Assembly: GCA_022414725.1 (NCBI GenBank)
Contig: CM039462.1
Span: 174,496,492-174,560,491 of the forward strand
Direction of reading: 5' to 3'
DNA from: Microglena sp. YARC
Lineage: Eukaryota > Chlorophyta > Chlorophyceae > Chlamydomonadales > Chlamydomonadaceae
DNA: 64,000 bases
The position numbers and the translations under genes were made by a program. Under the pieces are notes generated by a model that saw only the letters and a program-made list of their open reading frames with translations, ran no database searches and was not told where the DNA came from. Shown piece by piece: positions 1 through 62,948 of this stretch. How positions within the stretch are numbered: the stretch's first letter is position 1; every line of letters begins with the position of its first letter.

Positions 1-198
1 CCATTGTGCCCTCCAGCCCATTGTCAAGATTTTGCGCCAAGGCGCACAGCTGGCCCGCATTCAGGTCATGAGTGGGGGTCAGCCGGGCTAGGCCCCCCTT
101 GCGCAGCAGGAGGTCAGCAGTCAGTGTGTTAGCTGTGTTAAGGGAGAAGTCGCCCTCAAGAACTGGAATGGTGAGGCCCAGGCTTGGCACGTGAGCGC
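1..198 (-). CDS. U32 gene exon u17, cut by window edge
   Basis: The acceptor is at 199-201 and the exon runs off the left edge without a stop. It encodes EGDFSLNTANTLTADLLL and LTPTHDLNAGQL, the last conserved block of long U32 proteins. Roughly the final 50-100 residues should lie beyond the window. Confidence 0.94.
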
Positions 199-3100
199 CT
201 GCACAGTCAAATGGTGCAAGAGGGTGGTGATCATTAGTCAAATAATATAAGTCAGGTAATATTCAGATAAATGGTGCATGAGGGTGATGATCATAAGTCA
301 AATAATATAAGTCAGGTAATATTCAGATACATGGTGCAAGAGGGTGGTGATCAAATGGTGCAAGGGGGTGGTGATCATAAGTCAGTGCGTTGGCCATGTT
401 AAGGGAGAAATCGCCCTTGAGGATCGGAATGGTGAGGCTTATGTTTGGCACCTGAGCGCTAGCACAGTCAAACGCAGATACATATTAATTGACATGTGTA
501 GTGTTTGACAGTATTAAGAGGGTTGTAGTGACTAAGAGAACAAGTTCTATGTAGCGTCGCAAGCGACGTTAAAAATTGGCGGAGAGGTTCGCGACGGAGC
601 GACAGGTGGCACGGGAAGCGAGTTAGTTACGATACCGTTGGCTGACGTGTCAGGCTTCATCTCGGTCAGACGGTCGGTCAGTCAGTCGGACAGACAAATG
701 GGTAACCCTGGGGGCTCCCGCCCCCTTGAAGAGGGGACTCTGCCAAAAACACCAGACAAGTGAGCCAACATAGAAGAGTAATTTACTTTGAAACAAAGCG
801 TGCTTGCATGGCGTCAATGTACAACACCTACCTGTTCCTCCCAAGGTTTGCAACTTGTGCAGCAAACCAAGAGATCTGACCAGAAGAGCATCAGATCCCA
901 ACTTGAGGTAGAAGTTCCTGAAGGAGATAAGGACAAGAAATAGGTATGTGGTAAGACTACAGGATACTGTGATGATGGTGACGGTGATAGTGATGATGGT
1001 GAGGATGATGGCCAACCTACCACATCCTCTCCTCATCTGGCTTAATAATCCTAGGTGTGGCCACAACAACACACTTGCCTGCCTCGTTTACTAATGCCAT
1101 GGCATCTTTCAATCATTGAACAATACATTCTTGTACATGCAAAGATGGTTCATGTCAGGGGAGGGGCAGAGAGACAGATTTTGGACCGCACGCTCAATAT
1201 GGTGTCCGATTCAGATGGGAGTTGGAATTGTGGAAGTTTCATACAAAAAGAGGGGGGACATCAAGTTGGGAAAAAGGTTTTTTACCCCCCCCCCCCCCCC
1301 CCCCCTCCTAAAACCCGCTTACCTCACCCTACCCCCCCTAACATGGGGGTCATTCGAAAGATCAAGGTTCATGCGTTCATCAATTCACGTGTCCCTATTG
1401 ATTCCACCCAACCTACCACAGCCTCTCCTCGTCTGGTTTAAGGATCCTAGGTGTGGCGACAACAGCCCGCTTGCCTGCCTCCTTCACTGACGCCACAGCC
1501 TCTTTCAAGCCTTGGACTTCCAGGAAGTCCAGTACTATCTCGCCTAACCACTCCACTGTGCATGCTGCTTCAACCTACATTCACATGGTTGTGTTGTGTT
1601 GTGTTGGGTGGGGCTGAGTTGTGTTGTGTTGGGTTAGGTTAGGTTGGGTGGGTCCTTTCCATTAGCCTCCCCTGGTAATGTGGAGTTCTTGATCGTCCGA
1701 GCTTGCTTGAGTCCCTTTAGCCTGTTTGGTTAACCTTAGACTGGACCACATATTTGAACATACAGTTTTGATCGGCAGGGAAAACAACAGAAAGGTAGGT
1801 AAGGAAAAATAAGCACAACCAGAAGGGAATGAAAAATTCACATGCATAGGCCTATGCAAAAATCCTATCCTCTGTGATTGCTATATGGATCTGAGGCTTT
1901 GCCTCGCTTCCCACCCCCCCCCACACACACCCTAATCTCCCCCCAAGCACCCACCCATCAATCCTACCCCCAACAACACACCTTAACCCCCCACACACAC
2001 ACCTCTACCCCTATGCCTGGCCCACACAACACACATGTGAACCCACCTGTTCCTTTGAGCGGCACAACACTCTTAATGAGGCCAAATGCCGTGCCTCTGC
2101 CGCCTTCCTCACTGGCTTGCGGCCTGTACTGCTAGCTGCTGAGCTGGATGCTGACTGTGTAGCTGCTGCCATGAGGCGAGGCAGTACAGGTTCCTCTGCA
2201 AGACCATCTGCACACCTGTGGTCCCTTCGTAGTGCCAGCATGGAGTCAGCAGCCTCACGTCGTACTGCTTTCAGCTCACTTGAAGGCAGGAACAAGCCTG
2301 CATAGTGTGGGATGCAAATGACTTGGCTTCATGAAACAGCTGGTACATTTGGAGTTCAGTAGGGCACCAGGATGACACAAAAGTAATGAACCACATCAGT
2401 CCACTGAATAATTGATGACATGCACCAAGTCTATCCATATTCAGAGGATATGATCAAATCATGGAATCTACATATAAGGAATGAACATATAATTATAGAT
2501 AACATACACATACAATTCCAGATGTCCTAAAAATATGATTACAGATGGCATACAAGTATACAGCATATGGCACATATGTGAGTGGATACATGTTCAGTGC
2601 CCAGACCTAGGAATGAATGTACCCCAGAACCTTTGCGCATGAGGGGAATATTCTTCGCCCCTCATGTAGCCATACCAGGGAAGATGCTGTTTGACCTTCA
2701 AGCAAATGCTTCTTGCTGCAAGTAAGGGGAAGGCGGGGCCTCTGGCACAACCCCTCCCAGCAGGCAAGGTCACACAATGGTATTTGTATTTTGTTTAATT
2801 TATATGTTTTTGTATTTGAATTTGTCTGTGCATTTTTCTATGCACTAAAATCTGGATTTGTATCTGTATAAAATATATGTATTTGTATCTGTATAAAATA
2901 TCTGTATTTGTCTGTGCATTTTTATATGCACTAAAATCTGGATTTGTATCTGTATGTATTTGTATCTGTAAACAATATCTGTGTTTGGATCTGTATTTTT
3001 TACATATTTTCGAATTTGCATTTGTGTTTGCCTGCCAGCCTGTGGAGATTCTCTGATATATTTTCAATTTAGTTGGCTTGTTTTTGATGTTTCTGGAGGT

Positions 3101-6100
3101 TGATGGTCAGGGTATTCATGGAGCTGATGTTGGTGTACATCGGAGCCACGAGTTGCTCCGATGTACAGTCAGTTTATATATGTTATATTTGTTTGACCTG
3201 ATTTTTATGGTTGTGGAGGTGGTGGTTGCGGTGGTTATGTAGGTGATGGAAATTGGAGCCATGACTTGCTTGGTGAGTTGGTGAGTTAGTGCCCTTGATA
3301 GTCAGATGACTAAGATAGATGTTATCCAGATTCAGCAAGTGTTTGTTATTCGAGGTTGGGCAAGCCCACGGTCAATGGCAGTAGTAGTGGTGGTGGTGGT
3401 AGTTTAGCTGGTGTTTTTGGTGGTGGTGGTAATGTTGGCGGTGGCAGTGGTGGTGGTGGTTTAGGTGGTGCAACCTTGGCGGGGCCGGGACCCCCAAATT
3501 TGGCCACCCCCTGGACCATAATATAAAATATGCATAAATGTATAACAAAATTAGAACTTCAAACGTACCTTGATCCAACTTCAGGCCAGATGTATCCAAG
3601 CTCTTTGTATCAAGGCAGTTGGGCCCTAGCTGGCCGATGGCCTGGAGTGGGGACAACAATGATATGGTTGCTTTCAAATGTAGAGTGAAGGTGGAAGGGT
3701 AGGATAGGCAAATCATGTTTCATTCAAATCTCTTTTAAAGATCATGAAACTACACAATTGCTATGCGATCTGGAATGTCTTGTACCTATTGACATTCCCG
3801 TGGTTGCATTCTACACTCATTAAAACAACTGGAATTGCTTTATTCCAAATATGTTTGATTAGCCTAGCATATCATCTCTAGGAACAAGCAGAGCCATCAG
3901 CATCCTGGTAGTTTATGCCATATTTAATATTTTGGTATCCGCTGTACCACAGAGGCAGGGAGCAGTTGGCATAACACAAATCTGCACAATATTTTTGCAT
4001 TCTACAGGGTAGCGGATTGTGTTGATTCGGGTCCATGATTGTTTAAATGATTTTTACTGATTTGTAATCAATTTTAAATGTTTTTATGTCTCTAATCGGG
4101 TCTGGGGTAGGGGACATTTCGTCCCAAACGGGGTCCCAGGTAACGATCCCAAATTATAGCGGGAAACATATCCCTGTTTCTGCACTCAGTCGGTCGGTCT
4201 ATTTTAATGTTTTTATTTATACTTCCTGTAGTCACTGTACCAGAAAACTGTGAGCAGCCTGAAGGCTGACATATCATACAAGTACATAGATATTTAATCA
4301 CTACAATCTGCACACACACACATACACACACTCAAACACATAATGACCAAATTCAGGTTGATGAAGCTCACCGGTGACAGCCACAAATAAATAGGGTGTC
4401 TAAACCCACGTAGAACACACGTCATCTGGATCCCAACAGAGTTCATTCACCGCAAATAACTCTCATATCGAGGATGGTTTAAAACAAAGATTGGTGATTA
4501 GGCACAGCGTAATAAAACGGGCTGGTCCCCTCAACCTCACGCCTCGTCATAAAGCGTAACATGATTGATTCAAACAGAGTTCCTTCACAGCCAATAACAC
4601 TCATATTGAAGATGGTATTCAAATCCTAAACCCTAAACCCTACAGTTCATTCATGGTGAAGCCTCTCACCTTAGTGATGTCTGCAACAGCCATTGGGCGC
4701 TTGCTAGCTGGCGTTAATGACATGGAAGTAGAGGCGCTACAGGTTCGTCCCGCATCATCCCTACACAGATGATGGTGGTGATGCAGTACGGAGGTCAGGA
4801 TGCAGTTCTGCCCCCAGGATATGAAAATGACTTGCTGCACCAAATTATTTTTGTTGATGATAATGATAGAAGTGCTGTTGCAAAGGAAGTAGAAGCACAA
4901 GCGGTTTGTCCCGCATCATCCCTCAACATAGAATGGTGGTGATGCAGTATGAAGTTCAGTGTGCAGTTCTGCCATCAGGAAATGCAAATAACTTGCTGCA
5001 CCAAATTATTGTTGCCAATAATAATGATGGAAATGCTGCTGTTGTTGCTGGTGGACGGAAGTAGGGGTGCTGGCGATATATCCCGCATTATCCATACACA
5101 TATGATGGTGGTGAAGCAGTGCCAAGGTCCCTGTGCATTTATGCCACCAGGATATGCAAATTACTTGCTGCTTCAAAATATTCTTGCAGATGATAATGAT
5201 GGAATTGCTGCTGTTGTTGCTGGTGGATGGATGTAGAGGCGCTGACGATATGTCCCGCATTATCCATACACATATGATGGTGGAGAAGCAGCGCGAAGGT
5301 CCCTGTGCAGTTATGCCATCAGGATATGCAAATTGCTTGCCACTGCGAATTATTGTTGTCGATGATAATGATGAAAGTGCTGCTGTTGTTGCTGGTGGAT
5401 GGAAGTAGGGGTGCTGGCGATATGTCCAGCATTCGTACACATATGATGGTGGAGAAGCAGTGCAAAGGTCCGTGTGCAGTTTTCCCGCAAGGGTATGGAA
5501 ATGACTTGCTGCTGCAAATTGTAGTTGCCAGTGACAATAATGGAGGTGCTGTTGGATGGCAGTCAAGGCGCTTGCAGTATGTTTGCGCCATCCCTACATA
5601 GATGATGGTGGGGCAGGACACACTCCCGCCATCCAGTCTCCCGTTTTCCCACTAGGGCATCAAACAATGAGATGCATCGTTGCACAGTTGTTGCAGTCAT
5701 TGAGTCTCGACTTAGCTTCATTTGGCGCCACATAGAGATCCCTAATTAAACAAATATGGGTTAGCCAACTTTAGTTCAAGCTCAGGCGCAGTAGCCGTCT
5801 GCGAAAAAAAACTCACAGTAACCTTCCCCAGTGCAAGCAAACGGGAAGGTTCCTTAAATTGCACGCCCCGTGGCAAGGCGTAACACTTTCCAACTTCCGA
5901 TTTTCCTAGTGCAAACGAACGGGAAGGCTTCTTCAACTTCACGCCCGTGGTAAGACGTAACAATGTCCTTTTCAAGTTTTTACCTGAGGGTCAGCGTCAA
6001 CGGTTGGTCCAGCTCTCCTGTCACTTGCACATCAATAGGAATCTTGAGCTGTTGAGCTGAGCTAAGCTTGTTGTATGTTTCTTTCAGACGAGCCTCAGTC

Positions 6101-9100
6101 TTGGGGCTTCTTGTGCGCCATACCAAGTCACCAGGCTGAACAAAAAAGTGAGGTAACATCAGATCAGATCAGAACATACCAGATCACACCAGATCAGATC
6201 ACAACACATCCAATCACCAGGTCTAAGCACAAAATATAGCCAGATCACACCAGATCAGATCACAACACATCCGATCGCCAGGCTAAGCACAAAATAGAGC
6301 CAGATCACACCAGATCAGATCATAACACATCCGATGGCCAGGCCAAGCACAAAATAGAGCCAGATCACACCAGATCAGATCACAACACATCCGATCACCA
6401 GGCTAAGCACAAATTAGAGGCAGATCACACTAGATCAGATCACCAGGCCAAACACAAAATAGAGCCAGATCACACCAGATCAGATCACAATAGATAATAT
6501 CACAACAGATCAGATTACCAATCTATACATAAATGCAAGATCAGGCCGGATACGTTCCCCAGGCTACACAGAGATCCCAAGTTTTAGAGAGCGGGCTTCT
6601 AATCCCCTCCACATTCCTCATAACTTATAGCTGCCCTTCCAGCCTATCCGGTTGTTTGGCAAGTCACTTAAGCCAATTTGGCTACCCCTGGACTGTAGCA
6701 CATACATACATACATACATTTATATGTCAGATTACAAGCAAGATAAGGCAGTGCAACAAGCAGAAAGATAAAAGCAGGTATGCTCCCAAGGTGCTTGTTT
6801 CAGTATGGCCTGGTTATGTTGTCTGTAGGCGTCTGGTACCAGCTCACCAGCAGACACCAGCCTTTTAGATAGTGCCCTATGCTCCCTCGGGTAATTGCTG
6901 AAGCATCATTCAAATGTCAATGCACATGAAAATGCAAGCAGAACCAACCAAGGGCCCCAGGCATCTGCTGCAGAAGTTCTTAAAAAGAAGGTCAGGTCAG
7001 GATGGAAGGGGCACAAAAAATCCTCAACTCCTCTGATGAAACTAACACAGTGGACCGGGGGCATTATGAAGAATATTAGGAAGTCTGAATATGTTTGTTC
7101 AGACTTAACTTGGTCATCAACGTTAACTTCAAATGCACAAGCTATAAGAGGAGCTTATACATTTGAAAATGTATACTATAGAATAATATTTATATATAAT
7201 ATGTAATATTACTGTAGTAACGCAATAATGCATTTTTTTAATAAATTCAAAATTCTAGCGAAACAGCTCGTCCGTCTAATATTAACTAACATTCACTTAT
7301 ATTATTCATTCTGTAATATGAACTAATTTAGTCTTTCCCTACTCATAGGTTGGAGCCACGCATTTCAGCCTCACCTCCACATAGCTCAGCCCAGGCTTAT
7401 GGTTTGGGGTTTAGAAGTTAGTAAGGGTCCAACCATGCATGTCAGCTGTACCTCCACATATGCCAGGACCTGTTTATCATTTATGGTGTAGGGTTCAGTG
7501 CGTTAGAAGCTATTGTTTAGGTTCCAACCACACACGTTAGCCTTACCTGAATATATCCCAGGTCTAGGTTTTGATAGGTCACATTGGTCTGGAACACCAG
7601 CTTCACCAGACCCTCTGACACCATATCTTCTCCAATGGGCTTGCCACTCCCCTGCAGAACATTGTGCACAATGCCACCTGCATTGGATTGCGGGGCAGAG
7701 ATTTCGTTTTCCTCTTTGTATAATTTTTGCTACTTCTGACCCTGTTTTGGCCTAAATTGCCGCTATAGAGAACCCCAATATATGGGCCTCAATGGCCCTT
7801 AAAAGCTTTTAAAGGATTCTGTCACTGGAGGAGGCCTAAACCCATACAGCTATATAAAAAAACCACTTCCTGAACTGAAAAACAAATCTCTGTTGGGGAG
7901 GGGGGGTAGGCACACTGACTGTAGGTGCTGTAGTGATGTGTGAAACCAATTATAACCATGTGTAAATAATGCAAAAATTGTTGCATATCTGTAGTACAAT
8001 GATGTGTTATTGAATTAAACCTAAAGAAATGGACGGGGTACATACACTTTAGGAGCTGTTGTGACGTGAAACCAAGGGTTACCAAGGGTTAATGATTGTT
8101 AGTTAGTATTATTATGTGTTATTGAGTGCAAACGTAAGAGATGGGCTTGCCATTCCCACAGTAACCTTCCCCAGTGCAAGCGAATGGGAAATTTCCTTCA
8201 ACTTCACGCCCCGCGGCAAGGCACATCCATTTTCAAACATTGCACACCTTCTTCATGTTCCTCTGGGTTTCCAGCATCAAAGACAACACCGTCACCCTTT
8301 GAGATCGGCCCAGCCAGTTGCACTTCAACAGAACGGGGACTAACACTAACCACCTTGCCCACGTAGACCCCGCGGTGTCGTGGGGAGCGGCCACGCACAA
8401 GGCGCTGGTGTTGGACTCCTTCTAAGAAGCCGGGGGTGAGGCCAGTATGTTCACCGTCTTGACCACGAGCAAACACCTGCAGCATTGATCACAACATTGA
8501 ATGTTTCAGTCAATGTACTGCCAAAATCTTGGGGCTCAACCTAGTGCCTGGCTCAGGGAGCTGCCTAGAAGCTGCTACTTGTAGCTGAAAAGAAAAGCTA
8601 TGGATACATGGCCCCGATCATCCAACTGATATATTCAAGGTTGGGCAGGTCTATTAGCCTACATGTATATATGGATACATCGATACAATCATCCAAATGA
8701 TGTATTCAAGGTTAAACAGGTCTATTAGCCTATTTATGTGGATACATTGATACAATCATACAAATGATATATTCAAGGTTAAACAGGTCTATTAGCCTTT
8801 ATATATGGATGCACTGATGCAATCATACTACTGATATATTCAAGGTTGAGCATGTCTATTAGCCTATTTGTCAAACCATAGACAGAAATAAAGAGGCAAA
8901 AACACACTTTGCCTGTATACTCCATACCTGTTCAACATAGAACTGCCGGTCTTCCCACTTGAATTGAATGAAAGAAAAACTCACCCAGCTCAAGATCACG
9001 TCGCTCTTGGGTACTTAACTGAACTGCTTTCTTGGAAGCAACCATGGATGGGCTGATTTGCTAACGAGCCGGTTTCTTGGGGCATTATCTCTCAGCTGTG

Positions 9101-12100
9101 TCAATTGAAAGCAACAATTCCTCACCTGCTCAAAGTCACGCCGCTCTTGGGCGCCTATTTTAACCGGCTTCTTGGAAGCAAACATGGATGGGTTGATTTG
9201 CTAACAAGCCGGTTTCTTGGGGCATTATCTCTCAGCTGTGTCAATTGAAAGCAACAATTCCTCACCTGCTCAAAGTCTTGGGTGCCTATTTTAACCGGCT
9301 TCTTGGAAGCAAACATGGATGGTTGATGTGCTAACGAGCCAGTTTCTTGGGGCATTATCTCTCAGCCGTGCTAATTGAAAGTAGCACCTGCTCACCTGCT
9401 CAAGGCCACGTCGCTCTTCGGTACTCTGCCTAAGCGCCTTTTTGGTGGCAGCCGTCTTCTTGAGGCGATGTCTCTCAACTGCGATTCCCAGGGCCTCCTA
9501 GTCAGTTATAATTGAAAGAAACACTCTCGCACCTGCTCAAGGTCACGTCACTCTTGCGTGCTTACTTTAGTCGCCTTCTTGGTAGCAAATATGGAGGGGC
9601 TGATTTATTAATGAGCCAGCTTCTTGGGGCATTATCTCCCAGCTGTGTTAATTGAAAGCAACGCTTGTGTCAGCGTTTAGCTGTAGACTGCCTGACTGTC
9701 CTTCCGCCCCCCTTAGATGAAACCATACACATTCTAGCCTCCTGACTCTCTTGTTAACAAATCGCGCACCTGCTCAAGGTCACGTCGCTCCTGGGTGCTT
9801 AGCTTTGTCGCCTTCTTGGCAGCAGCCATGGAGGGGCTCATGCTTTTATCATCACTCCTCCTGGGGCGTTGTCTCTCAGCTGTATTTCCCAAAGCCTCCC
9901 AAGCCGCATCAATAGCCTTGCGGTACACTTGAGTGGTGAGCGATACGTACTCAGGACCCTTCAATCGACCTAGTGTTGTTTGGCATGGATTGGGTTGGGT
10001 TGGGCTGGGCTGGGTTGGGTTGGGCAGGTTTGGTTTGGTTTGGTTTGGTTTGGGCTGAGTCGGGTTGGGTTAAGCTGTTGGGCTGGGTTGGGCTGGTGTG
10101 CGGTATGGTGTAGGGTGGTAGATGTGGCATGGTGCTGTTGGGTGACTCTCTCATCATCACTTCTCTTCGGGTGTTGTCTCTCATCTGTGTTCCCAAGAGC
10201 CGCACATGCCGCATCAATTGCATTGCGGTACACTAGAGTGGTGAGCGATACGTACTCAGGACCCTTCAATCAACCTGGCATGGTTTGTCATAGAGTAGGT
10301 TGGTGTGGTGCGGTGTGGTGCGGTATTGGCTTGGCATGCATTGCAATATTGCATTGCACTCTATATATATGGAGTATACATTACCATATATGTTACCATA
10401 TATATTGCAATGCGCTCCACATGTACACAATATATATATTGCACTCCATTTCCTTCCACTACACAACACCCCATTCAATCACCTCAGCTAGTGAATGGAA
10501 CATGTTTTCCGGCTGCCTGGGCACAGCTACCTTGCAAACCTGACTGTTATCTCCTACCCATCCAACATACCATCAATTTAAAAGCAAGCCACAAATAAGG
10601 CTGGCTTGCAACATATCCACAAAGGACCATAAAGAAACAAGCAGACCCGCACTAAGAGAAAACAACTACACTTGCTTGCTGCTTTTTTGCTTGCTTGCTG
10701 CAATATTGTCTAGTTGTGAGGACTAGTTTGAAGACCCCTCCCAGATGTTGTGGAGCAGGCTTTCTTTGGGTCAACAATGGCCTGTTGATGACAACATAAT
10801 TAAATGCAATGTAACATGTAGGCACACACCCCAGGCCCCCGTGGTTTTTTATATGTATGAGTTTAATTCACAAGTGCTTGTTTTTCTAAACTGTCTTTCC
10901 TATTATAAGTTTAGCCACGTCCTTGTAGCCTAGTTGGCTACCCCTGGACTGTAAAAATACATACACATGTACATACAGACATATCAATCCAACATACCTT
11001 CAATTTTAAAGCAGGCCACACCAGCTTCGATGAGCTCTGGCACCTGAGGAGTTGCCAGATAATAAATTAGCAGCTTGGATCTACCAGGTGGATTAAAATG
11101 AGGCGTGAGTGGCTTCAGTGGTAGGGGGTTGAGTGGCTGCCAGTGTGGGAGAGAGGGTCTGTGTGGTAGCGTGTTATCTAGGTACGTAGCCTGTTAGTTA
11201 GGCATGACCCCATCCCCGTTCGGAACGGGATGGCTCTATCGAAGAGCGATCCCGATTCGGACAGAAGCATGTGCGGGGTCCCATCAGGTTGCTGGTTCGA
11301 ACCCCATCGAGGTCACCTGGGCCCACCCGGAGGGTCGTCGACCGGCATGGTAACTGGACTCAAGGCGTGATGTAAGCCCGTTCATTGCATACTTACCAGC
11401 CGGTTCCTTTAAAACCACGTCCTTAGAAGTGTCATTGTGACATACCTTGGAAGTTGAGATTTATTTATTTATTTATTTAGGCATGACCCCAGTGTCAGCA
11501 CGGTATACACATCCAATAATCAGTCCTTGGACATCACAAGCTACATATTCAAGCTACACTTTCAACCTGCCCTTTTGATATGCACAACTTTGTACAGCTT
11601 GTTACAGTCTGGGTGGAAGGATGGTACGTTGTAGGTGCTAGGTGGTAGGTGGTGCTAGGTGGAAGGATGATAGATTGTAGGTGCTAGGTGGTGGTAGGTG
11701 CTAGGTTGAAGGATAGTAGGTGGTAGGTGCTAGGTGGTCACCTGCATGTGCATGCAGCAGCAGTTGTGTACCTTTGTGTCAAACCAGCTACTGTCTGCCC
11801 ATGTAGACAATATGCAAACATCAGCCCATATGGATTTGCTTGATAAGCTGGGAGCTATTATACGATATATATTTGTCTGCCCAGGCTTCTGTAACGATTA
11901 TTCTTCAATCAATCAATAAATTAATTGAATAGTTAATCAGTTACTTGATTGGTTGATTGATTGATTGATTGGTATAACGTCAAAGGACTGACAGCACCAC
12001 TTCCGTGTTCTACAGCCTTCTACATCAATTACTATATATTGCCCACCTCCAAATATGGCAGCACAAACTTCAGTGATAGTTACTCCAACACATCAAACCA

Positions 12101-15100
12101 GCAGTTACAAGTTCTAAATCATGACACATTTAGGCAGCACATCAGTACATCTGGCAGTAGATCAGCAGCACACCAGGAACAATCATTCCACCGAGCCACA
12201 GCACCACTTACATGTTCAACAGCCATCAAGTCTTGAGGGCTGAGCAAGTACTTCATATCTCCCATCTCCTTCAGCTGTCCATCCAACAACAGCCCGTACG
12301 GCATACGGCAAGCTTGCGCACATTGGCCCCTGCATGTATGTTACAGGCCAATTAGGACAAAGGGACTGGGGTGTGGGTTGACCGCACCGACAATGCCTGA
12401 ATGTAATCAAGCACAGTTTATAACAGCCCATACGGTATACAGCACGCTTGCGCACACTGGCCCCTGCATGCACGTCAAAGTCCAGGGGTAGCCAATTAGG
12501 ATAAAGGGACTGGGGTGTGGGTCAGTAAAATCAATAATAACAGTAATCAAGATTATTCTAGACTACCAGTAGGGTCCGGTTTAACAAGCACAGTTTTAAG
12601 AGCCCCTGCGGCATGCTTACACAAACTGCCCCCTGTGGGATTTTAGCATCGAATTAAGAAGGACATTTCTAGCTATGGGTTTTCTACAATTGCCTATTCT
12701 CTTCTTCTACTGATTTGTCTGTGTTCTACACGTGTTTGCTTGTTGTATGTAGTAGTTAATAAGCATTTGTATATGCTTTGTTTAGGTTGCCTCTTGACTT
12801 GTATTTTCTTGTACGCTCTTTGTTTTTATTAGCAAATTAGCTTTGTTGTATTTGTAGTGATATTGTATTTGCAGTTGTGCAGCACATTCAGGTTCTGAAT
12901 ACAACAGGTCACACCGGGTTGACAAGTGCAAGGCACATGTGGCATCAGCAGTGTTCTCACCTGTTTGCTGACTACATGTCTGAGACAGATGACAGAGACA
13001 GCATGTCACTTGTCTATAAATGTCACTTGTCTCATCTGTTCCCTCTGTTGCAAACATGCTCATGTGGCTTCCACAGTGTGCTCACCTGTTTGCTGATTGT
13101 ACGTCAAAGACAGCATGTCACCTGTCTCTAGATGCCACCTGTCTCATCTGTTCCCTCTGTTCCAAACATGTTTGCTGATTATATGTCAGAGAAGGATGAC
13201 AGAGACAGCCTGTCACCTGTCTCTAGATGAAACCTGTCTCATCCACCACCACACCACACCATGCTTATGTGGCTTCAGCAGTGTGCTCACCTGTTTGCTG
13301 ATCGTCCACCCCATGCCTCAGAACTGAAGCACTGTCCTGAGTATGACACACATAGTGCACCATGCACAAAGGCCTCGACTTCAGCCTTGGAGCCATCTCG
13401 CACCTGCAACAAAATCATAGTTCAAATCAGTCAACATGATTCACGGAAGTGTATGTTGGATTAGGAAACACACAGAGAGCACCATGGACAAGGGCCTCTA
13501 CTTCAGCCCCCACTCAATTCCGTCGCCACGAGTTGCTCTGATAGCCAACACTCTTTGTCAATTTTCCGCGTTGCTTGCGACGCCGGGAGGAATTGTTCTA
13601 GACTCCTCTCAACTTGCATCCCACCCCATCCCGCCTCACCCCTTGTATCTTTTTGGCTTGCTTTAGAGATCTCTTTCAAGACAAGCTCCCTCCCCACCAC
13701 CACCGGGTCCACTCCCAACTGGTGGATGAAGACGGCCCCCTTTCAGTAGCATCTTTATTCCTGCCACCCTCCACTCTCAACCCACCCTTTTTTTGCTTGC
13801 CCCTTTCATCACACCCCACCCCTCCTTTCTTCAGATCACCTTGGATATTTCTTTCAAGCTCAGCTCCCTCCTCACCACAGCTCGGTCCACTCCCAGCTGG
13901 TGGGTGATGTCGGCCCAGTCCAAATCTCTGTTACAGTTCAACCTTTGCCCCCCTCTACTGCTATCCCACCCACCCAACCCCTCTTCAGCTCACCTTCAAG
14001 ATTTCTTTCAAGCTCAGCTCCCTCCTCACCACCACACTGTCCACTCCCAGCTGGTGGGTGATGTCGGCCCAGTCCAAAATCTCTGTTACAGTTCAACCTT
14101 TGCCCCCCTCTACTGCTATTCCACCACCCACCCACCCACCCCCTCTTCAGCTCACCTTCGAGATTTCTTTCAACCTCAGCTCCCTCCTCACCACCACACT
14201 GTCCACTCCCAGCTGGTGGATGATGACAGCACTGTCCAACTCTCTGTTACAGTTCAACCTTTGCCCCCCTCTACTGCTATCCCACCCACCCACCCCCTCT
14301 TCAGCTCACCTTCGAGATTTCTTTCAACCTCAGCTCCCTCCTCACCACCACACTGTCCACTCCCAGCTGGTGGATGATGACAGCCCTGTCCAACTCTCTG
14401 TTACAGTTCAACCCTTGCCCCCCTCCAATGCTATCTCATTCCCCCCTCCCCACCCCACCCCACCCCTTCTTCAGCTCACCTTCGATATCTCTTTCAAGCT
14501 CAGCTCCCTCCCCACCACCACACGGTCCACTCCCAGCTGGTGGATGATGACAGCCCTGTCCAACTCTCTGTTACAGTTCAACCCTTGCCCCCCTCCAATG
14601 CTATCTCATTCCCCCTCCCCCCCCCACCCCCCCCTTCTTCAGCTCACCTTCGATATCTCTTTCAAGCTCAGCTCCCTCCCCACCACCACACGGTCCACTC
14701 CCAGCTGGTGGATGAAGTCGGCCCCCTCAGCTGATGTGATTGTCATCTGTGTGCTTCCATGGACTGGGAGATTTGGCGCCACCTGAAAGGGTTCCAATAT
14801 ACAGTTGAATGGACTAGACGTTGGTAGACCAGGAAACAATAACGCTGCTGCTGTTGGTGCTGCTTTCGATGCTGTTGTTTATGCTGTTGTTTATGCTGTT
14901 GTTCATGCTTTTTACTGTTTTTTTAGTGTTGTTGCTTCTGATAACTGTTTTTTTTCCCTTCTTTTTTGAAGCCGGTAATGTTTTTTTTCTTTGCAATTGC
15001 TGTAGTGTTGCAGAAGCTCTTATTGATATCAGTGAAGCTCTTGTTGGTATCGCGTGTTAGTTGTACATCTTGCTACCTTCAAATACTCTATGATGATGAT

Positions 15101-20149: not shown

Positions 20150-20182
<33 letters not shown>

Positions 20183-20651
20183 ACAGCCACAACTGCATCC
20201 GCCTCTACCACTGCAGCAGCAGCACCAACATCAGCAGCCGCCGCCGCAGCAGCACCAGCACCAGCAACAACAGCAACAGCAACAACAGCAGCCGCAGCAG
20301 CAACACCAACATCAGCAGCAACATCAACAGCTTCCTCAGCAACAACAGCCGCCATTTGCACAGCAAGCACAGCCCCAGCAGCAACAGGCTGGGCCAGCTG
20401 GTCCTCCCCCCTTCCCCCCTCCCCCTCCCCCTGTCAAGAAGATTAAGAAGCCCAGGTGTCCCTTCAGCTCATGTCCTGGTGTGTACTCCCCATGCTTGGG
20501 AGCCTTGAAATGGGTGCAGTCTCGATACGCAGATTCGCAGGGCTTCTGGGGATGTGACCTCTTCCCCTCATGCAACTTCCGATACTTCCCCCCCACACCA
20601 GTGGATCACCCACAGCTGTCTCTGGAGATCTGTGCCGACAACCTGTTCAAA
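18468..20651 (+). CDS. ZRANB3: ZRANB3-like exon 1: acidic start, polyQ, Cys4 finger
   Basis: 728 codons from ATG to donor GTGAGT. It starts MPDEQEDFYDSVDWDEIEF. Pro/Ser/His-rich sequence follows, then a CAG/CAA tract of about 270 residues (19565-20390) interrupted by Pro, His and Trp. A PPPFPPPPPPV stretch leads to a finger at about residues 662-705: CPFSSCPG ... GFWGCDLFPSCNFRYF. The finger resembles GRF or topoisomerase C-terminal zinc fingers, which bind single-stranded or structured DNA; the class is inference. The long antisense and +1/+2 frames over the CAG tract are shadows. Confidence 0.9.
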
Positions 20652-25181: not shown

Positions 25182-25238
<57 letters not shown>

Positions 25239-26911: not shown

Positions 26912-26953
<42 letters not shown>

Positions 26954-37823: not shown

Positions 37824-37858
<35 letters not shown>

Positions 37859-38005: not shown

Positions 38006-38047
<42 letters not shown>

Positions 38048-41847: not shown

Positions 41848-41878
<31 letters not shown>

Positions 41879-42128: not shown

Positions 42129-42161
<33 letters not shown>

Positions 42162-45100
42162 TTCCCTCCCCCCCTTTCAACGATTCCAACTTTTCTGGGG
42201 GGTACCAGATATTTTCCGTTTGTCATCCTGCTGCTTGGAACCTACCGTCTTACCCAGGCTCAGTTGGTGAAGAACTGTATGACAGTTGTAAACGTCATCA
42301 CTTGGAACCCTACAGGTGGCAGAAGCTGAACAACAGTCTTATCAACTTGAACCAGCTGCATGATGGCACCACTGGCGAGGAGCCAGCCGCCACCAACAGC
42401 GCACCCAATGCTCATGGACAAGCCTCCCTCCCGGCTGACTCCCACCAGGCTGTTTCAACAGGCGGTGCAGCAGGCGGGACAGCAGGCGGTGCAGCAGGGC
42501 AAAGAAATGGCCCCGCTCGAGGAGCACACCACAGGGGCTTGGTCTTAGACAGTGTGATTGATATGAAGGCTGGTAAGCCAAGAAGTGAGGCTCAGGACCA
42601 GTCTCATCCTGTCTTGTGTGTGTTTGTTACTTTTGTGTGTGTGTGTAACGTGTGTGTGTGTGTATGTAACTTGTGTGTGTGTGTGTGTTTGAATTGTGTA
42701 TGTGGGGGACTGTTTTCTGGATTCCTTCAGGATCCACAACATGAATTAATACATGGAAAATTCTGATGTTTGCTTCAAACATGTCCCCCCCTCCCCCCCC
42801 CCCTTAACCCACTCCCCCATAGTGGACCAGTCTCCTCCTGCATCTAAGACCTCAGCTGTGGTGGATGATGTGGATGCTGTCACAGGACGCCAACAGCAGC
42901 AGCAGGAGGAGGAGAAGCAGAAGCAGGGGAAGGAGCAGCTGCTGGAGCTGGAGCAGGATAAGGAGGGTATGGCAGTACGTGCTGATGCAGCTGCTGATGA
43001 GGATGAGGATGAAGATGCAGATTTTAAAGTAAGAGTCCAGCGCAGAAAGCAGCAGTTGGATCAGCAACAACAGCAGCAGGAGCAGGAGCAGCAACAGCAA
43101 CTAGAGGCGGTTGCCTGTGGTCCTTCACCTGTCTGTATAGATCTTGTCTCAGATGCTTCCCAGCCCACTTCCGATGTGGCCTGGAGCCCAGCTGCCTGGA
43201 AGCTAACTTCACCACCACCCGGGACACGATCACAACCTGGCAACACAAGTGTCCCTGTGGGGGCCAAGCCACCTGTGAAGGATTGTGTAGACCCAACCCA
43301 AAGCCCAGATTCACCACCCAGGCAAGCCATTGTCCTAAGCCCCCTTGAAGCCTCCTCCATTGTTGCTGTCAAGAAGAAGAGCATGACCCATCAGTGTGAC
43401 AGCGGAAGTGTGACCCTTACCCTGGGAGGGGGCCATGCCCAAGCTCTGGATCCAAGAGGGCTGGACTTGGATGATCTGGCAGTGGCAGGCATTGATGATG
43501 CTGATGGGCATGCCACTTTGAGATCTCCGAAGCCCCCTGCCTTAGCACCCACACACAGCCCGCTCCACCCCACACCCCCACCCCAAGCAACGCCTATGAC
43601 AGGTCCTGGCAACCGTAATCCCATATCGCCCAGTAAGTCCCAATCCCCAAGGCTTGCTACGCAAGCAGGACTGCTACCGCCAACTCCAGTCTCAAAAGGC
43701 ACCAGGGATGTGTCGAAGGCCAAGGCTCTGGACACCTACGCTGACTGCACCCCAAGGCTGGGCACACAGGCAGAGCCGCCACCCCCAGCACCCGACTCAA
43801 AGGGTAAAAGGGATGTGACAAATGCCAGGGCTAGTCACGGTCACGTCCACGGCACCCCAAGGCTTGGCTCTCATGCAGAGCTGCCGCCCCCAACACCCGA
43901 CTCACGGGGCGCAGGGGGTGCGGTCAAGGCCAGGTCCCATCAAAACCGCGTCCACTTCACTCCCAGGCTTGGCACGCAAGCAGAGCGGCCACTGCCCACT
44001 CCAGCCTCCAAGGGTGCAGGGGGTGCGGTGAAGGCCAGGACCCTTCACAGTCACGCTCACTGCACGCCCATGGCGCTCATGCTGCTACAGAGCTCGCAGC
44101 AAGTCGGAACAGGAGCCACTCCTGGAGCTGTCGCCCTCTCCCAGCATAAGGGGGGGCCTGACAAGCATGACAAGCATGAGAAGCAAAGAGATCATGACGA
44201 GTGTGAACAGTATGACCCCCTTGGAACGGGCAGATGCACTGAGGGCCCCGAGGGATCCAAGAGATTTTGACACAATTAGTCGCTGCTTGTTGTAATCATT
44301 CGTCCCCATCTCTTGTCTCCTCTTACTGCTGATTTCTCTTTTCAAAAATTTCGAATTGTATCCCTAGTACTCACTGCCCAGAAAGAAGCTTGTTTTCGCT
44401 ACCCCCACCCCACACCATCCCCACACCACCACCCAACCCACCCACACCACCCCCAACCCCAAACACACCCGCAAACACCCACTCCACTCCCACTTCAACC
44501 ATTCACCCCCACCCCCACCCACACCCCACACCCCAACCCACCCACACCACCCCAACCCCACACCACCACCAACCCTAACCCCAACCCCAACCCAACCCCA
44601 CCCCACCCCCTAACCCCACACCGACCCCAACCCCACACACCCCCCTAACCCCAGGTGCAAAAAGGGCCCCGAGGGATCCAAGCTGAACCCTGAGTTAGAA
44701 GCTCTGGCATCCATCCCCGCTCCACACCACCCCCACACAACCCCTCAACCACCCCCCACCACCTACACTCACACCCCACCAACACCACCCACACCCGCAC
44801 TCCCACACCACACCACACCACCCCCCAACCCACCCACACCCACACCCCGCCCCAGATGCACTGAGGGCCCCGAGGGATCCGATCTGAACCCTGAGTTAGA
44901 AGCCCTGGCATCCATCCCCGAGATTTGGTATGAAGTGAGCTCACACACAAGTAGAGTGCACCTCCACCTTGCGCCTGATGGCTCTGTGCCCCTGGGCCTG
45001 AGCATACCCCTAGAGCTCCTGGTAGCACACCAGGGGTCTGCTGTGGATCAGATTGTGAAGGGGCATGCCGGGGAGCTGGCGCGGTGGGAGGCGGAGCAGG

Positions 45101-48100
45101 AGGCGGAGAGGGGGCGGAGTGGCGGGTGTGGGGAGGAAGGCAGGGTGAAAGAGCTGGAGGCTGCTGGGGAGGAAGAGAGGGTGAGAGGACTGCAGGTCAG
45201 TGTGGAGGAGAGGATAACAGTGCAGCAGGCAAATTTGGAGGAGGAAAGGGTGAGAGGGCAGCAGGCCACTGTGGAGGAGAGGATGGCAGGGCAGGGGGGC
45301 AGTGTGGAGGAGGAGAGGGTGAGAGGGCAAGAGGCAAGTGAGGAGGGGGGGGGAGGAGAGTGGCTCTGGAGGAAGGGAGGGTGGCAGAGCGGGATGCAAC
45401 CCCCGAGGAGGAGAGGATGAGAGCGCAGGAGGCAATTGGGGAAGAGGAGAGGAACGGAGAATGTGAGGTGCATGGCGAGGGTTGGCGATTTCCACCTAGC
45501 TTGCGAGGTACAGCAGGCCGCTCTCTCACTGGGCTCGACCTGGGCCAGGCAGATATGGGTGTGAGCTTGGTGAATGATACCGGTCAGAGTGGGGGGCGGT
45601 CTGGAATTGATTTGCAGCCGACGCAGCAGAAGCAGAAGCAGCAGCACAATGCTATGCAAGAGGAACAGCAACAGCAGAAAGAGCCCCAGAACCTGGAGCA
45701 GCAGCAACCAGAGGGGCAGCAACAGGAGCAGCACTTGCATGAGGAGCAGCAGCAGCAACAACATCAGGGCCAAGCAGAAGAGTCCCCTGTAGCCGCCGCC
45801 CCACCACCCAAAGAGCAGCACTTGCACAAGCAGCAGCAACACCAGGGCCAGGCAGAAGAGGCCACAGTAGTATGCGCCGTCGCACCACCCAAAGAGCGGC
45901 GCCCAGGCGTGTCCTTTGTGGGCCCCTGTGGTCTTGTGGCAGTTGGACCCCAGCTAGATGCAGCACAGCTCCTGGAGGTGTTGCATGAAGCGCAGCTGTT
46001 TGCAAGAGACTGGAACGAGCTGCGCTCTGTGACTAAGAGCCGTCTGTTTGGACGTGTGATCAACGCAAATCTGCAGGTGAGGTGGTTTGTTGTAGGTGAG
46101 CTGATTTGGTGGTGTTGAGGTGATTTGGTGGTGTTGAGGTGATTTGGTGTAGGTGAGGTGAGGTGATTTGGTATAGGTGAGGTGATTTGGTGTAGGTGAG
46201 GTGAAGTGATTTGTTACAGGTGAGGTGATTTGTTATAGGTGAGGTGATTTGGTGTAGGTGAGGTGAAGTGATTTGTTATAGGTGAGGTGATTTGTTATAG
46301 GTGAGGTGATTTGGTGTAGTTGAGGTGAAGTGATTTGGTATAGGTGAGGTGATTTGGTGTAGGTGAGGTGATTTGATATAGGTGAGGTGATTTGGTGTAG
46401 GTGAGGTGAAGTGAGCTAGTGACTGTAGAGGTTACTGCATCCAGGGCTTGTAGCAGTAGTGGAGTAGCTGCAGCGGGTACATGAAATTAGTGCTGACAAA
46501 AATGCTAGCTTGCTGCAATATTGCCTGTATCTCATTCTGAGGATTGATTGGAGGACCCCTCCTGTACGTTGTGGAGTGGGCTTGTCTTGGGTCAACAACG
46601 GTCTGTGGCAGTAGTGCAGTACATAGCTTTCCTTTTCCGCTATGAGCAGCAGCTTCTAGGCTGCAGCGCATGCTTGCGGCAGAAGTGTGACATGGTGAAC
46701 TCAACTCCAACTATAAATTTAATTCAAATTGATTAGAGTCAGATTCAAGTTAAAGATTGTTTTTGAACTTACAGGATGCTGTGGAGCTAGTGACCGCTGA
46801 GGCTGCTGCAGTGCTTGCTGCAGGGCCTGCTTACAGCAGTAGTGTGACACGGTGAACTCCGCGCCAACTATAAATCTAAATCCAAATTCGTCAAGTCAGA
46901 TTCAAGTTAAAGGCATGTTTTTAAAACCTACAGGATGCCTTGAAGCTAGTGACCGCTTAGGCTGCTGCAGCGCCTGCTTGCAGCAGTAGTGTGACATGGT
47001 CAGCTCAACACCAACTATAAATCTAAATCCAAATTTATGTAAGTCAGATTCAAGTTCAAAACATGTTTTTTAAACCTACAGGATGCTGTGGAGCTAGTGA
47101 CCGCTGAGGCTGCTGCAGCGGGCGCTTTTGGCAGCAGTACGACGCGGTACATACAAGATGCTCCTAAGCAAGCCCTTCCGGAAGGGGCTGAGTGGAGAGT
47201 GGTTCGTATGAAGGCGAGAAATATGCATGGGAACCTGATGCGAGTCAGAGTCCCGGATGGAGAGGGTGGGTTGCCTGGACAGGACACGTTTGTACTACGA
47301 GAGTACCAACAGGCCTTCAAGGTGGATGGCTCCGCCAGGCTGTGCATACACTGTGTAAAGGAGGTGGCAGACTGCAAGCTTGCTGCTGACGTGGTGCTGG
47401 ACTCCACCATGCATCTCTTCTGTGGACCTGCCTGCGAGCATCGCTATTATCTCAAGGCCTCCTCAGGTACTCGCTACCATCTCGCTACTATCTTGCTATT
47501 ATACTAGCTATTACACTCGCTATTATCTTGCTATTATACTCACAACTCTACTTGCTACTATTTCGCTATTATACTTGCTACTATCTTGCCATTATACGCG
47601 CTACTATCTCGCTACTATCTGAAGGCATCCTCAGGTGCAGGCTAGGCTTTCGAGTCTTGACAAACGAGACAGTCTGTGATGAAGTGCTCCTATGGGGGGG
47701 GGAGGGGGGGGGGGGGAGGGGGGGGGGGGGGGATGTTTGTGATGGTGATACTGGAGGAGGAGGGTAATTGAAGCATTGATCCTTTGGCACTTGAAAACTT
47801 TGAAGCTTAACACTTTCAACAATAGCTTGACACTTTCAACAACAGCTTCAACAACAGCTTGACACTTTCAACAATAGAAGCCCACGTCCTACCCAGGTGC
47901 TATCCGTCGAGCCCTGAGCAAGCTTGAGCGCGGTGTCTGTGTAACTTGTCAGCTTGACTGCCGGGCTTTGGTCGCTCAGCTACAGTGCATTCGTTACGGC
48001 AGCAAGGACTGGAGTGCCAAGAGGATGTCTGTCATTCGCAAGATGTACCCCCGCCTTGCTGAGAAACAGTACAAGTCGTACTGCGAGCGTCTGCTCCAGA

Positions 48101-49770
48101 CCCCTACCGAGGGCATGGCGTGGAATGCAGACCATATCATTCCTGTGTACAAGGGGGGAGGACTGTGTGAGCTTGACAACCTGCGCACGCTGTGTGTTGC
48201 GTGCCACGCCGATGTGACAAAGGAGCAGGTGGGTGGATTGGGGAGGCGTGACAGGGTGCAGGTGGGGCAGGCATGGCAGGGTGGAGGGTGGGGAGGCATG
48301 GCACGGGGAAGGGTGGAGAGGCGTGACAGGCTGGAGGGTGGGGACTGCATGGGAGTTGTGATTTTTGTGTTGTGGGTGGCAGTACAAGTCTTAGTGTGAG
48401 CGTCTGGTCCAGACCCCTACAGAAGGCACGGCCTGGAATGCAGGCCATATCATCCCTGTGTTGGCTGGAAGCTACGACTAGCCCCAAAAACAAACTATGT
48501 TGTTGGTATAGATGTTCTGTAGCTTTCAAGAACGTACATTGAGCTCTACTTTAACTACACCTCCACCTCCAAACACAACATCATCCCGACCCACACCCTC
48601 ACCTAGACCCACACCCTCACCTTGACCCACAACCTCACCTAGACCCACATCCTCATCCCTAAACTGCATTCCTGTCCAACCTGAATGCATTGGCAGATGA
48701 AGGAACGGACAGCTGAGCGGCGCCAGAAAGCATTAAAGACTGCAGACATCCGAACCTTCTTCAGCCCATCGTCTCTTGCGAAGACTGATGCTTCAAGCAA
48801 GCAGGGAGAGAAAGGCAACAAGCGCAAGCGCGCGTCTAAAACTGCATTCGTTGATGAGGATGATGTCGACATCGTTGATCCAGAGGGGGGGAAAGGTGGA
48901 GGAGGGGCAAAGCCAAAAGCCAAGAAGCCAAGAGGGAAGGCTGACAAACCCCCGGCTAAGGTGAGGGCTTATTCCCAAGTGCACTTGTGCCATCAGGGAT
49001 TTTTTTCCCACTTTATATAGCGATCGCAAGTTTTGACCCCGTTTATCAAAATTATGGCTATAACATTTTTTTGATGCCCTAAATGCACCTACATAGCTAC
49101 AAATAGCTATAAAAGCTACAAAAAGTACTAAAACGCTGTCCCTGGAGGAGGCCTAAAACCATTAAGCTAAAAAAAAAACTTACAGATTTGAAAAAACATC
49201 ACCGTGGGCCATAGCTTTTCTTTTCAGCTGCTCGTAGCTAAGGGCAGCAACTTGTAGGCAGGTCCCCTGGCTTGCTACCCGACCAAACCTATAGCAATGT
49301 ATTGCAACTGGAGGCTGACATGATCATTCTTCTAGAATTGTTGAAATCTTGGGGCTTAGCCCAGTCGATGGCACATGGAGCTGCCTAGAAGCTGCTGCTT
49401 GTAGCGTGAAATAAAAGCTACGATGTGGACCTTGCTGTTCTCTAGACAGGCAGGCAGACAAACGCTCGCTCGCTTTGACACAATCAATAAAACATATTGA
49501 CAGAACAATTACAATGGAACCTGTCTTGAGGTTTGTAATTCGTTAAACTTCATCATTACTCTGTCCCCCTCTCTCTCTCTCACACTGGTTGATGGTGCAA
49601 CACAACCAAGCATCTGTCCGGCCGCACAGTAAACATAAACACGATCAGTCAGCAATAGGAATCAGTTATCTGTTTCTCTCTGGTTAACGGTGTTGCACAA
49701 TTATATTGCGGTCCAGCCGCACAGTAAAAATAAAAACATCTTAATTTAGAACCAAGAAACAATCTCTCTC

Positions 49771-49844
<74 letters not shown>

Positions 49845-62800: not shown

Positions 62801-62948
62801 ACCAACCAACCAACCAACCAACCAACCAACCAACCAACCAACCAACCAACCAACCAACCAACCAACCAACCAATAATTTGAAATCCAACCAGCTTAACCC
62901 TCACCCATGCATCAACCGCTCGAGCATCATACCGCCATGGAGGATGTG
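55776..62948 (-). CDS. SnRK2/CAMK-like protein kinase, C-terminal part, five exons in window
   Basis: Five minus-strand exons (k-a to k-e) give [10 protein letters not shown] | [17 protein letters not shown] | [20 protein letters not shown] ... [20 protein letters not shown] | [13 protein letters not shown] ... KIFSSKKLI stop. This is kinase subdomains IX to XI plus a tail. 'G-YPFEDP-x-P-N' followed by 'TI-x-x-V-L' is characteristic of plant SnRK2-type kinases. The ATP-binding lobe, catalytic loop and activation segment are upstream of the window or within the 63-kb repeats, so activity cannot be judged. Exon k-c is one base short of phase. Kinase family is confident; SnRK2 subfamily is likely. 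Confidence 0.87.
56036..56565. repeat. Family B and an inverted pair of family H copies
   Basis: Family B is at 56036-56100. TTGTCTTGGGCCAACAATGG (56297) and its inverse CCACTGTTGGCCCAAGAGAA (56456) form a foldback across 56225-56560, in the intron between k-d and k-e. Confidence 0.8.
56806..56842. repeat. Poly-G tract
   Basis: G run with a single A interruption, in a kinase intron. Confidence 0.95.
57240..57440 (-). repeat. Decayed copies of kinase k-d donor end
   Basis: CACTTACCTGGAGGT at 57310 equals the k-d donor at 57470. GGAGGTGGGGCCA follows in three tandem copies, and the AACAGAATGCACACAGCAGT block recurs at 57160 and 57424. Confidence 0.88.
57478..57580 (-). CDS. Kinase exon k-d
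   Basis: 103 nt encoding [20 protein letters not shown] and [10 protein letters not shown]. It follows the end of the kinase fold. Acceptor GTGTAG and donor GTAAGT; it leaves in phase 1 for k-e. Copies of the donor end lie at 57310-57400. Confidence 0.85.
57884..57916. repeat. Poly-C tract
   Basis: About 31 C residues, next to a family H fragment. Confidence 0.97.
58385..59710 (-). repeat. Array of decayed copies of kinase k-c donor end
   Basis: ACTTACGCACC-C-A-GTGTCTTCCTCT-type starts near 58387, 58508, 58624, 58733, 59045, 59158, 59398 and 59638. The last, 59638-59700, still reads [19 protein letters not shown]. Distal copies retain only the donor and four or five codons. A family D copy (58815-59020) interrupts the array. 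Confidence 0.93.
59913..60061 (-). CDS. Kinase exon k-c: subdomains X-XI, one base short
   Basis: 149 nt. The frame entering from k-b reads [25 protein letters not shown]. The frame needed for [20 protein letters not shown] is shifted by one from about the GGG at 59987-59989. An exon of 150 nt would satisfy the phase of both neighbours, so a single missing base is the simplest explanation. Donor GTGCGT. Many donor-side copies precede it on the plus strand (58385-59700). Confidence 0.88.
60105..60190 (-). repeat. Decayed copy of kinase k-c start
   Basis: GATGGTACGTGACAGGTTGT and TGGGGTAGGCTGGGTTCTG match the k-c 5' end and acceptor; reads [14 protein letters not shown] on the minus strand. 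Confidence 0.93.
60240..60900. other. Kinase intron: C-runs, family A and H copies
   Basis: Poly-C near 60242, CCTCCCACCAC repeats, a possible tRNA-like relic at 60375-60440 (GGGTTCGAACTC), family A near 60500, family H near 60785 and GGGGTGG repeats near 60833. No exon is seen. Confidence 0.6.
61020..61362. repeat. GGGT/GT repeats and poly-G run
   Basis: GGGTGGGTGGG, then GTGTGTATGTG repeats, ending in a run of about 25 G directly before the k-b donor side. Cys/Val frames are shadows. Confidence 0.95.
61421..61471 (-). CDS. Kinase exon k-b: 51-nt exon
   Basis: 17 codons encoding [17 protein letters not shown], phase 0 on both sides, acceptor TGCAG and donor GTGAGT. This is the strongly conserved helix F to 'G..PF' region. 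Confidence 0.95.
62040..62112 (-). other. Possible tRNA-like relic
   Basis: The minus strand carries GGGTTTGAATCCC about 50 bases after a TGGTTCAATGGTTGA-like A box. The spacing and boxes suggest a tRNA pseudogene or SINE head. No clean acceptor stem is seen. Confidence 0.4.
62393..62520. mobile_element. hAT-type MITE, copy 5
   Basis: TAGGAACTGTCGCAAATCAT to ATTGCCGTTCCCTT, flanked by CTCATATA and CTCATAAA (7 of 8). Confidence 0.83.
62531..62557. other. Perfect 9-bp inverted repeat
   Basis: GCCGCTGAC, nine AT-only bases, GTCAGCGGC. It lies between a complete and a partial MITE. Confidence 0.9.
62568..62622. mobile_element. Partial hAT-type MITE
   Basis: TAGGGAACGGCAATATGATA and GATGCCGCCAGTCTGACTAG match one end of the family; the rest is missing. 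Confidence 0.8.
62706..62873. repeat. CCAA tetranucleotide microsatellite
   Basis: About 41 perfect units, ending 30 bp before the k-a donor. Antisense Val-Gly-Trp-Leu frames are shadows. Confidence 0.99.
62905..62948 (-). CDS. Kinase exon k-a: subdomain IX
   Basis: It encodes [14 protein letters not shown] before donor GTGAGG, matching '..YdgkaaDvWs.GV'. The nearest acceptor is GTGTAG at 62949-62951. A longer exon starting near 63014 is also open, so the 5' border is uncertain. Confidence 0.75.

Follow-up and report, generated by a model that had tools for sequence, protein, structure and literature searches.

Decayed local copies of exon ends in the introns of two genes of the green alga Microglena sp. 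YARC

Genes and gene models

The stretch of DNA analysed here, referred to as the window, comprises 64 kb (64,000 nucleotides) of contig CM039462.1 of the green alga Microglena sp. YARC, and all results come from this one window of one genome. It holds two long spliced genes that could be verified: a member of the U32-peptidase family on the minus strand (gene A, 2..17930), which runs off the left window end, and a gene for a ZRANB3-like SNF2 helicase with an HNH domain on the plus strand (gene B, 18468..51672). In both genes, many exons are accompanied by decayed copies of parts of themselves, which lie as local repeats in the adjacent intron. An earlier note on this DNA had drawn attention to these copies and is taken up below where the results bear on it.

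Each gene has a matching own-genome protein. Residues 1-909 of P0121 (1043 aa, U32 peptidase) map to the window at 100% identity in 20 exons, and all 19 of the resulting introns of gene A are of the GT-AG type. The exon segments of P0241 (2638 aa, ZRANB3-like; EukProt entry gene14800-20855_t) match the window exactly in 24 exons, with 21 of 23 introns being GT-AG; judged by its sequence, this protein would come from the same genome as the window. Since both proteins are identical to the exons of the window, most splice sites of the two genes are fixed. The closest named relatives are chlorophyte algae, e.g. Sanguina aurantia, Chlamydomonas eustigma and Chlorella.

The two models were curated to a total of 39 exons and 73 junctions, and exons are numbered here after these curated models in transcript order. 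Based on homologues, the exons 25911-25961, 32797-32932 and 41486-41589 were added and exon 38085-38289 was extended, and exon 33940-34103 was added to gene B from reading frame and phase only. Three introns of P0241 that lie inside long open frames (18742-19122, 19479-20438 and 43029-43106) were rejected. Predicted exons 9-11 of P0121 (within 9126-9497) and 13 and 20 of P0241 were dropped as copies; all five copy neighbouring exons in tandem and are probably mispredictions. Conserved exons are also missing from P0241, for example 25911-25961 with the sequence GVGKT, presumably helicase motif I.

Local copies of exon ends

Repeat families were detected by a self-comparison of the window, which yielded 64 families. 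Only the 49 contained entirely within genes A and B were considered, which leaves out 15, and four of the 49 were dropped for block gaps of more than 700 bp, leaving 45 tandem-like families. Self-matches within 3 kb in the whole window were direct in 178 cases and inverted in 14, which indicates that the duplication is local and direct. Exon and intron sequence is mixed in 28 of the 45 families, whereas 12 are restricted to introns and 5 to exons. Under a strict definition, requiring at least 10 bp on each side of a curated junction, 18 families, all of them among the 28 mixed ones, cross a splice junction. The statement of the earlier note that the copied unit nearly always spans a splice site was thus too strong.

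The basic observation is confirmed. Of the 39 curated exons, 22 have a direct, local copy of a part of themselves within the adjacent intron, close to the earlier figure of at least 24 of about 44 exons, and the copies occur, as had been described, on both strands (minus in gene A, plus in gene B) and on both sides of exons. Of the 28 exon-anchored pairs, 16 involve the acceptor side and 12 the donor side, and their exon portion is 15-122 bp long with a median of 59.5 bp. Exon-anchored families cover 8,802 of the 38,780 bp of intron sequence and intron-only tandem families another 2,570 bp, so that describing the introns as largely built from repeated junctions overstated the case. The density of tandem-like families is 0.87 per kb in genes A and B and 0.52 per kb at 51.7-63.2 kb.

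The most populous case is the acceptor of exon B5, where ten copies of a 130-bp unit, consisting of the acceptor and about 40 bp of exon (DEWPLLVVCPASL), follow each other at 26838..28308 and all ten retain the AG; the maximum of ten copies noted previously is therefore confirmed. The second gene contains several further acceptor-side cases, namely at exon B2 (22138..22438, period 120), exon B6 (acceptor-end copies, 28757..29400), exon B10 (one copy, 33716..34013, period 143) and exon B18 (acceptor-end copy, 45726..45900, period 87). The 5' part of exon B8 is copied at 31802..32461, and the start of exon B12 (EVMDRLAAALGG) has three copies upstream of it (37300..38146). At exon B14, the acceptor-end copy (41191..41562) includes the P0241 exon 41192-41238, which replaces the conserved exon 41486-41589 in that model, and one of the acceptor copies of exon B19 (DAVELVTAEAAA; 46660..47139, period about 150) equals the P0241 exon 46775-46843. 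Copies of the start of exon B17 lie at 44231..44920. Donor-side copies were found at exon B1 (20615..21676), exon B2 (22875..23379, period 434), exon B6 (29754..30075, period 143) and exon B12 (donor-end copy, 38229..39064), and an inner stretch of exon B20 recurs in the downstream intron (48067..48461, period 313). An exon-internal, in-frame array with a period of 105 (43747..44039) served as an example of the control class.

In gene A, the donor side is affected in exon A15 (donor-end copy, 1012..1517, period 396), where the copy stops 9 bp into the intron, as well as in exons A7 (10560..11020, period 427), A5 (12933..13305, period 125, with 207 for the exon-anchored pair), A3 (15235..15678, period 380) and A2 (donor-end copy, 16298..16520, period 131). 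Six copies of the donor end of exon A4, encoding RELSLKEISK, fill part of the downstream intron (13663..14727), and three copies in the donor-end array of exon A8 (8962..9886) correspond to exons 9-11 of P0121 (9126-9497). Acceptor-side copies accompany exons A17 (acceptor-end copy, 119..472, period 261), A8 (9848..10290, period 305), A6 (12288..12522, period 134) and A2 (16658..16917, period 85), and exon A12 has an acceptor array of four copies (4722..5616, period 161-172). The intron on the acceptor side of exon A5 holds a copy of an internal part of this exon (13346..13508, period 122).

Comparison with chance placement

The number of families mixing exon and intron exceeds what is expected from random placement. 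Circular shifting of the families gave 18.1 ± 2.7 exon-mixing families compared to the 28 observed, a value that was reached in 0 of 3000 shifts. For strictly junction-spanning families, 18 were observed and 15.0 ± 2.6 expected (P=0.17), which is not significant. Leaving masked bases in the shift changed the expectations to 17.3 and 13.7 (P=0.08 for the strict class), respectively. Circular shifting lets large arrays land on exons and overstates chance, and simulations were used besides. Divided by identity, the excess of exon-mixing families is significant below 84% (19 vs 11.8, P=0.005) and weak at 84% or above (9 vs 6.3, P=0.10). The excess is thus found mostly in old families, which fits a slower decay of exon-anchored pairs.

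A test per splice site did not reveal a significant enrichment. A spanning copy covered 25 of 78 junctions of the own-genome models, leaving out the two non-canonical joins of gene B and 2 of 80 junctions that were masked, compared to 26.7% at circularly shifted positions (P=0.16). This test was judged to be blunt, as a large part of the intron interiors is itself occupied by exon-anchored families; at intron positions lying over 60 bp away from any exon, coverage was equally high (26-34%). An over-representation of exon-anchored families beyond chance placement in genes A and B is supported.

Decay of the copies

Three results suggest that the copies decay neutrally under a filter imposed by splicing. 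For arrays found by Tandem Repeats Finder (TRF) inside curated exons, the period is divisible by three in 9 of 9 cases, or in 6 of 6 without the three arrays (19086, 19650 and 20136) that touch stretches called wholly or partly intron by P0241. This applies to only 12 of 35 intron-only arrays, 3 of 8 straddling arrays and 12 of the 28 exon-anchored pairs. Duplication thus strikes exons as well, and arrays with other periods are presumably removed by selection that preserves the reading frame.

Compared with the functional exon, 46 copies of 20 exons diverge by 0.116, 0.095 and 0.164 at codon positions 1, 2 and 3. This comparison examined 36 of the 39 exons, skipping three of more than 800 bp, and included six exons with in-frame stops under the assumed phase; the frame is unreliable for the four of the 46 copies located there, and without them the values are 0.121, 0.088 and 0.171 (hand arithmetic). 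Frame-shifting gaps occur in 10 of the 46 copies. The codon pattern fits a constrained exon compared with an unconstrained copy, with a divergence K estimated to be near 0.09. The two members of a junction-spanning pair share 0.876 identity in their exon part and 0.830 in their intron part, the neutral expectation for the latter at K of about 0.09 being near 0.82. An exon part that is more alike than the intron part is expected if only one of two exon copies drifts and both intron copies do.

Splice dinucleotides are retained in 32 of 38 copies (84%; AG in 21 of 26, GT in 11 of 12), with ten of the 38 coming from one array, and neutral drift at K of about 0.09 predicts about 31.5 of 38 (about 83%; hand arithmetic). 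Judged on these 38 copies, ten of which stem from a single array, the data fit decoy splice sites being neither purged nor preserved. This bears on the idea that selection maintains the copies, either as alternative exons or as decoy splice sites, for which the retention of 32 of 38 dinucleotides and the five copies that appear as exons in P0121 and P0241 could be cited. However, the retention is about what neutrality predicts, the codon positions show no coding constraint, frame-shifting gaps are present, and the protein models concerned may be plain mispredictions. We therefore regard selective maintenance as improbable.

Source of the copies

Each listed junction-spanning family touches a single junction, and the copies carry intron bases across it. 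In none of 13 tested copies does the flank run into the neighbouring spliced exon (highest z 1.6), and four of the 13 have flanks similar to the beginning of the adjacent intron (z of at least 2.5). The lack of any continuation into the neighbouring exon indicates that spliced RNA was not the template of the 13 copies, and an origin from complementary DNA finds no support within the window.

Introners are dispersed copies of one element. The copies described here resemble them in being repeated intronic sequence that carries splice sites, but every exon-anchored family has its own, locally restricted sequence within the window: none of the 28 is matched there at a distance of more than 3 kb, compared with 2 of the 12 intron-only families. 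Introners were therefore rejected within the window. A reverse-transcriptase reading frame (35513-36673, plus strand; Pfam RVT_1, E 1.3e-13), probably a LINE-like (long interspersed nuclear element) insertion, sits inside an intron of gene B and could be taken as a hint of such activity. Given the private families and the 13 copies that do not continue into the neighbouring exon, introner-like elements or copying from spliced RNA are extremely improbable as the source.

Another possibility is that the arrays are birth marks of new introns that arose when exon sequence was duplicated in tandem (Rogers model). The intron between exons B16 and B17 would be a candidate, as an exact repeat of 28 bp (44231-44258 and 44853-44880) lies on either side of it; the repeat is read in one frame where exon B16 ends and where exon B17 starts, and could mark a gained intron. 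Yet no GT is present from 44215 to the in-frame stop at 44268, with donors further upstream not having been examined, and no listed family apart from B16/B17 joins the donor and acceptor of one intron in two copies of one unit. As a general explanation, intron gain has only a small chance of being correct.

Explanation of the exon-anchored excess

The explanation that we favour, and consider reasonably probable, is that frequent tandem duplication at a local scale has left the copies behind as neutral remnants, which splicing tolerates. Direct local duplication, with units of mostly 60-430 bp, is seen in introns, in exon interiors and at junctions, and slippage, unequal exchange and repair of staggered nicks are candidate processes. 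Copies inside exons would persist only if their period is a multiple of three, while copies containing one splice site would persist with any period, since splicing would still use the functional copy and the mRNA would be unchanged. The functional copy would be the last one for an acceptor and the first one for a donor, leaving the spare exon end and its splice site to drift. Two causes may account for the excess of exon-anchored families. Introns may once have been about 200-500 bp long, so that a unit of 60-430 bp touching an intron usually crossed a junction, and a pair with one conserved exon copy would stay recognisable for longer than a pair of two free copies. Introns would thereby lengthen outward from their splice junctions and gather decoy splice sites. 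The earlier note suggested that selection might retain only the copies next to exons; this is better expressed as the removal of frame-breaking copies from exons combined with the slower decay of exon-anchored pairs.

This explanation was examined with simulations of neutral duplication, in which the settings for mutation, indels, duplication and intron length are assumptions. The observed values to be reproduced are an exon-anchored share of 0.70 (28 of the 40 mixed and intron-only families), a strict share of 0.40 (18/45) and a mean intron length of 1,048 bp. Simulations starting from introns of 200-300 bp gave a mean exon-anchored share of 0.44-0.59, and no run starting from 700 bp reached either the observed strict or the exon-anchored share. 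In runs with added unique DNA that ended near 1,048 bp, the strict share was 0.28-0.34 and the observed value was reached in 12-18%; starting introns of 250-300 bp that ended near the present size gave 0.32-0.34, with 15-17.5% of 40 runs reaching 0.40. The strict share can thus be reproduced if introns once measured about 250-500 bp. The geometry of short introns together with decay can explain the strict class, but not all copies limited to the exon.

A number of points weigh against neutral duplication as a full account. At the present-day intron length, the simulated exon-anchored share is only about 0.2-0.3 compared with the observed 0.70. The best two settings reached 0.59 ± 0.09, with 12% of 24 runs at 0.70 or above, and their final introns measured 648 and 802 bp. 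In the runs with added unique DNA ending near the present length, the share was 0.40-0.49 for three settings and none of 40 runs each reached 0.70. Slower decay of exon-anchored pairs was rejected as the sole cause, as it raised the simulated share only from 0.21 to 0.30, or from 0.25 to 0.36 with collapsed introns. The short ancestral introns of about 200-500 bp are themselves an assumption of the model, and visible local repeats make up about 29% of intron bp. Furthermore, no repeat is found in the 538 bp that separate gene A from gene B (0 of 67 grid points). Finally, 6 of 10 pairs with a period above 250 end within -15 to +16 bp of a splice junction, compared with a simulated fraction of 0.07-0.18, in a subset that was picked after seeing the data.

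In five of these six pairs, the end lies within the intron at +9 to +16 bp. Beyond the ends, five of the six widely spaced pairs have flanks without homology (z <2), the B2 donor reaching z 3.0 on the exon side; flank scores of pairs with a period below 150 were not used due to trivial overlap. For all pairs together, 9 of 28 end in the same interval, compared with 0.19-0.26 in the simulations, and this number had been 14 of 28 before a looser extension was applied. The neutral model leaves one residue unexplained, namely the widely spaced copies with an end at the splice site.

Such endings would be expected if duplication were aimed at exon ends by DNA damage linked to transcription or splicing, for instance at R-loops or at polymerases stalled at splice sites. 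In addition to the five widely spaced pairs ending +9 to +16 bp in the intron, four of them without further flank homology (z of at least 2), this explanation would account for exon-anchored families exceeding both the circular-shift expectation and every simulated run near the present intron size. On the other hand, exon-internal and intron-only arrays exist as well, donor and acceptor sides are similarly affected (12 vs 16), the strict share is within the range simulated for short ancestral introns and not significant by circular shift, and the subset ending at junctions was chosen post hoc, with 9 of 28 among all pairs against a simulated 0.19-0.26. We consider targeting of this kind unlikely. 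Similarly unlikely is the possibility that exon ends are true duplication hot spots, with a transcription- or splicing-linked process placing copies of them, along with the first or last 10-16 bases of the intron, in the neighbouring intron. Introns would then grow outward from junctions as reservoirs of spare exon ends. The non-random centring that the earlier note saw persists as an excess of exon-anchored families for which neutral simulation at the present intron length falls short. The splicing, R-loop or reverse-transcription process it had offered as a cause is unsupported because exon-internal and intron-only arrays are present, both exon sides are similarly affected, the 13 tested copies do not run on into the neighbouring exon and intron bases are copied.

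Relation to described systems

Tandem repeats across exon-intron boundaries have been described in human duplicated genes (De Grassi & Ciccarelli 2009, PMC2812944), where they alter gene structure and splicing or add introns, and exonic repeats occur as well. The present copies are similar in that direct local repeats cross an exon-intron boundary in 18 of 45 families. In the human case, variable minisatellite expansions in recently duplicated paralogues are concerned, whereas here mostly units of 60-430 bp are involved, which are decayed, private to each exon and present beside 22 of the 39 exons in two unrelated genes. Tandem duplication has been reported to give rise to introns in an RNA-dependent RNA polymerase gene of potato (PMC4974935) and in Drosophila (PMC2891723). 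These cases share with ours a tandem duplication that involves splice signals, and the potato duplicate is described as holding intron-exon structure (PMC4974935). Unlike in intron gain, an existing junction is copied here, the copy stays intronic and the number of introns is constant, with the possible exception of B16/B17. For comparison, a mean intron length of 720-823 bp is stated for the alga Limnomonas spitsbergensis (PMC11228838). Titles and abstract openings returned by a literature search contained no account of introns occupied by decayed copies of the junctions at their own ends. Compared to the boundary repeats described before, the present case differs in its density and in the copying of existing junctions.

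If the pattern is true genome-wide, this alga would show intron growth under way, with duplicated junctions carrying a readable decay clock, and spare exon ends and decoy splice sites would lie beside about half of the exons. It would offer a system for studying how splicing selects one working junction among many, such as the ten similar acceptors of exon B5, and how introns lengthen without transposons. It would also allow testing whether gene predictors make false exons from such copies, as has apparently happened in P0121 and P0241.

Further observations in the window

The region at 52-63 kb had been supposed to hold a third gene. Ten reading frames from it were compared with Pfam and no family scored above the cut-off, the sole match being a weak one to zf-RING_15 (18.5 bits, cut-off 30.8). 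Within this putative third-gene region, more local repeat families were seen at 58381-60223, some with offsets near 100-120 bp. Part of the last gene B exon (50664-50752) recurs about 2.5 kb downstream, past the gene, at 53170-53259 with 95.6% identity. A satellite of the hexamer GCTGAT with about 116 units occupies 63299-63999, up to the right window end.

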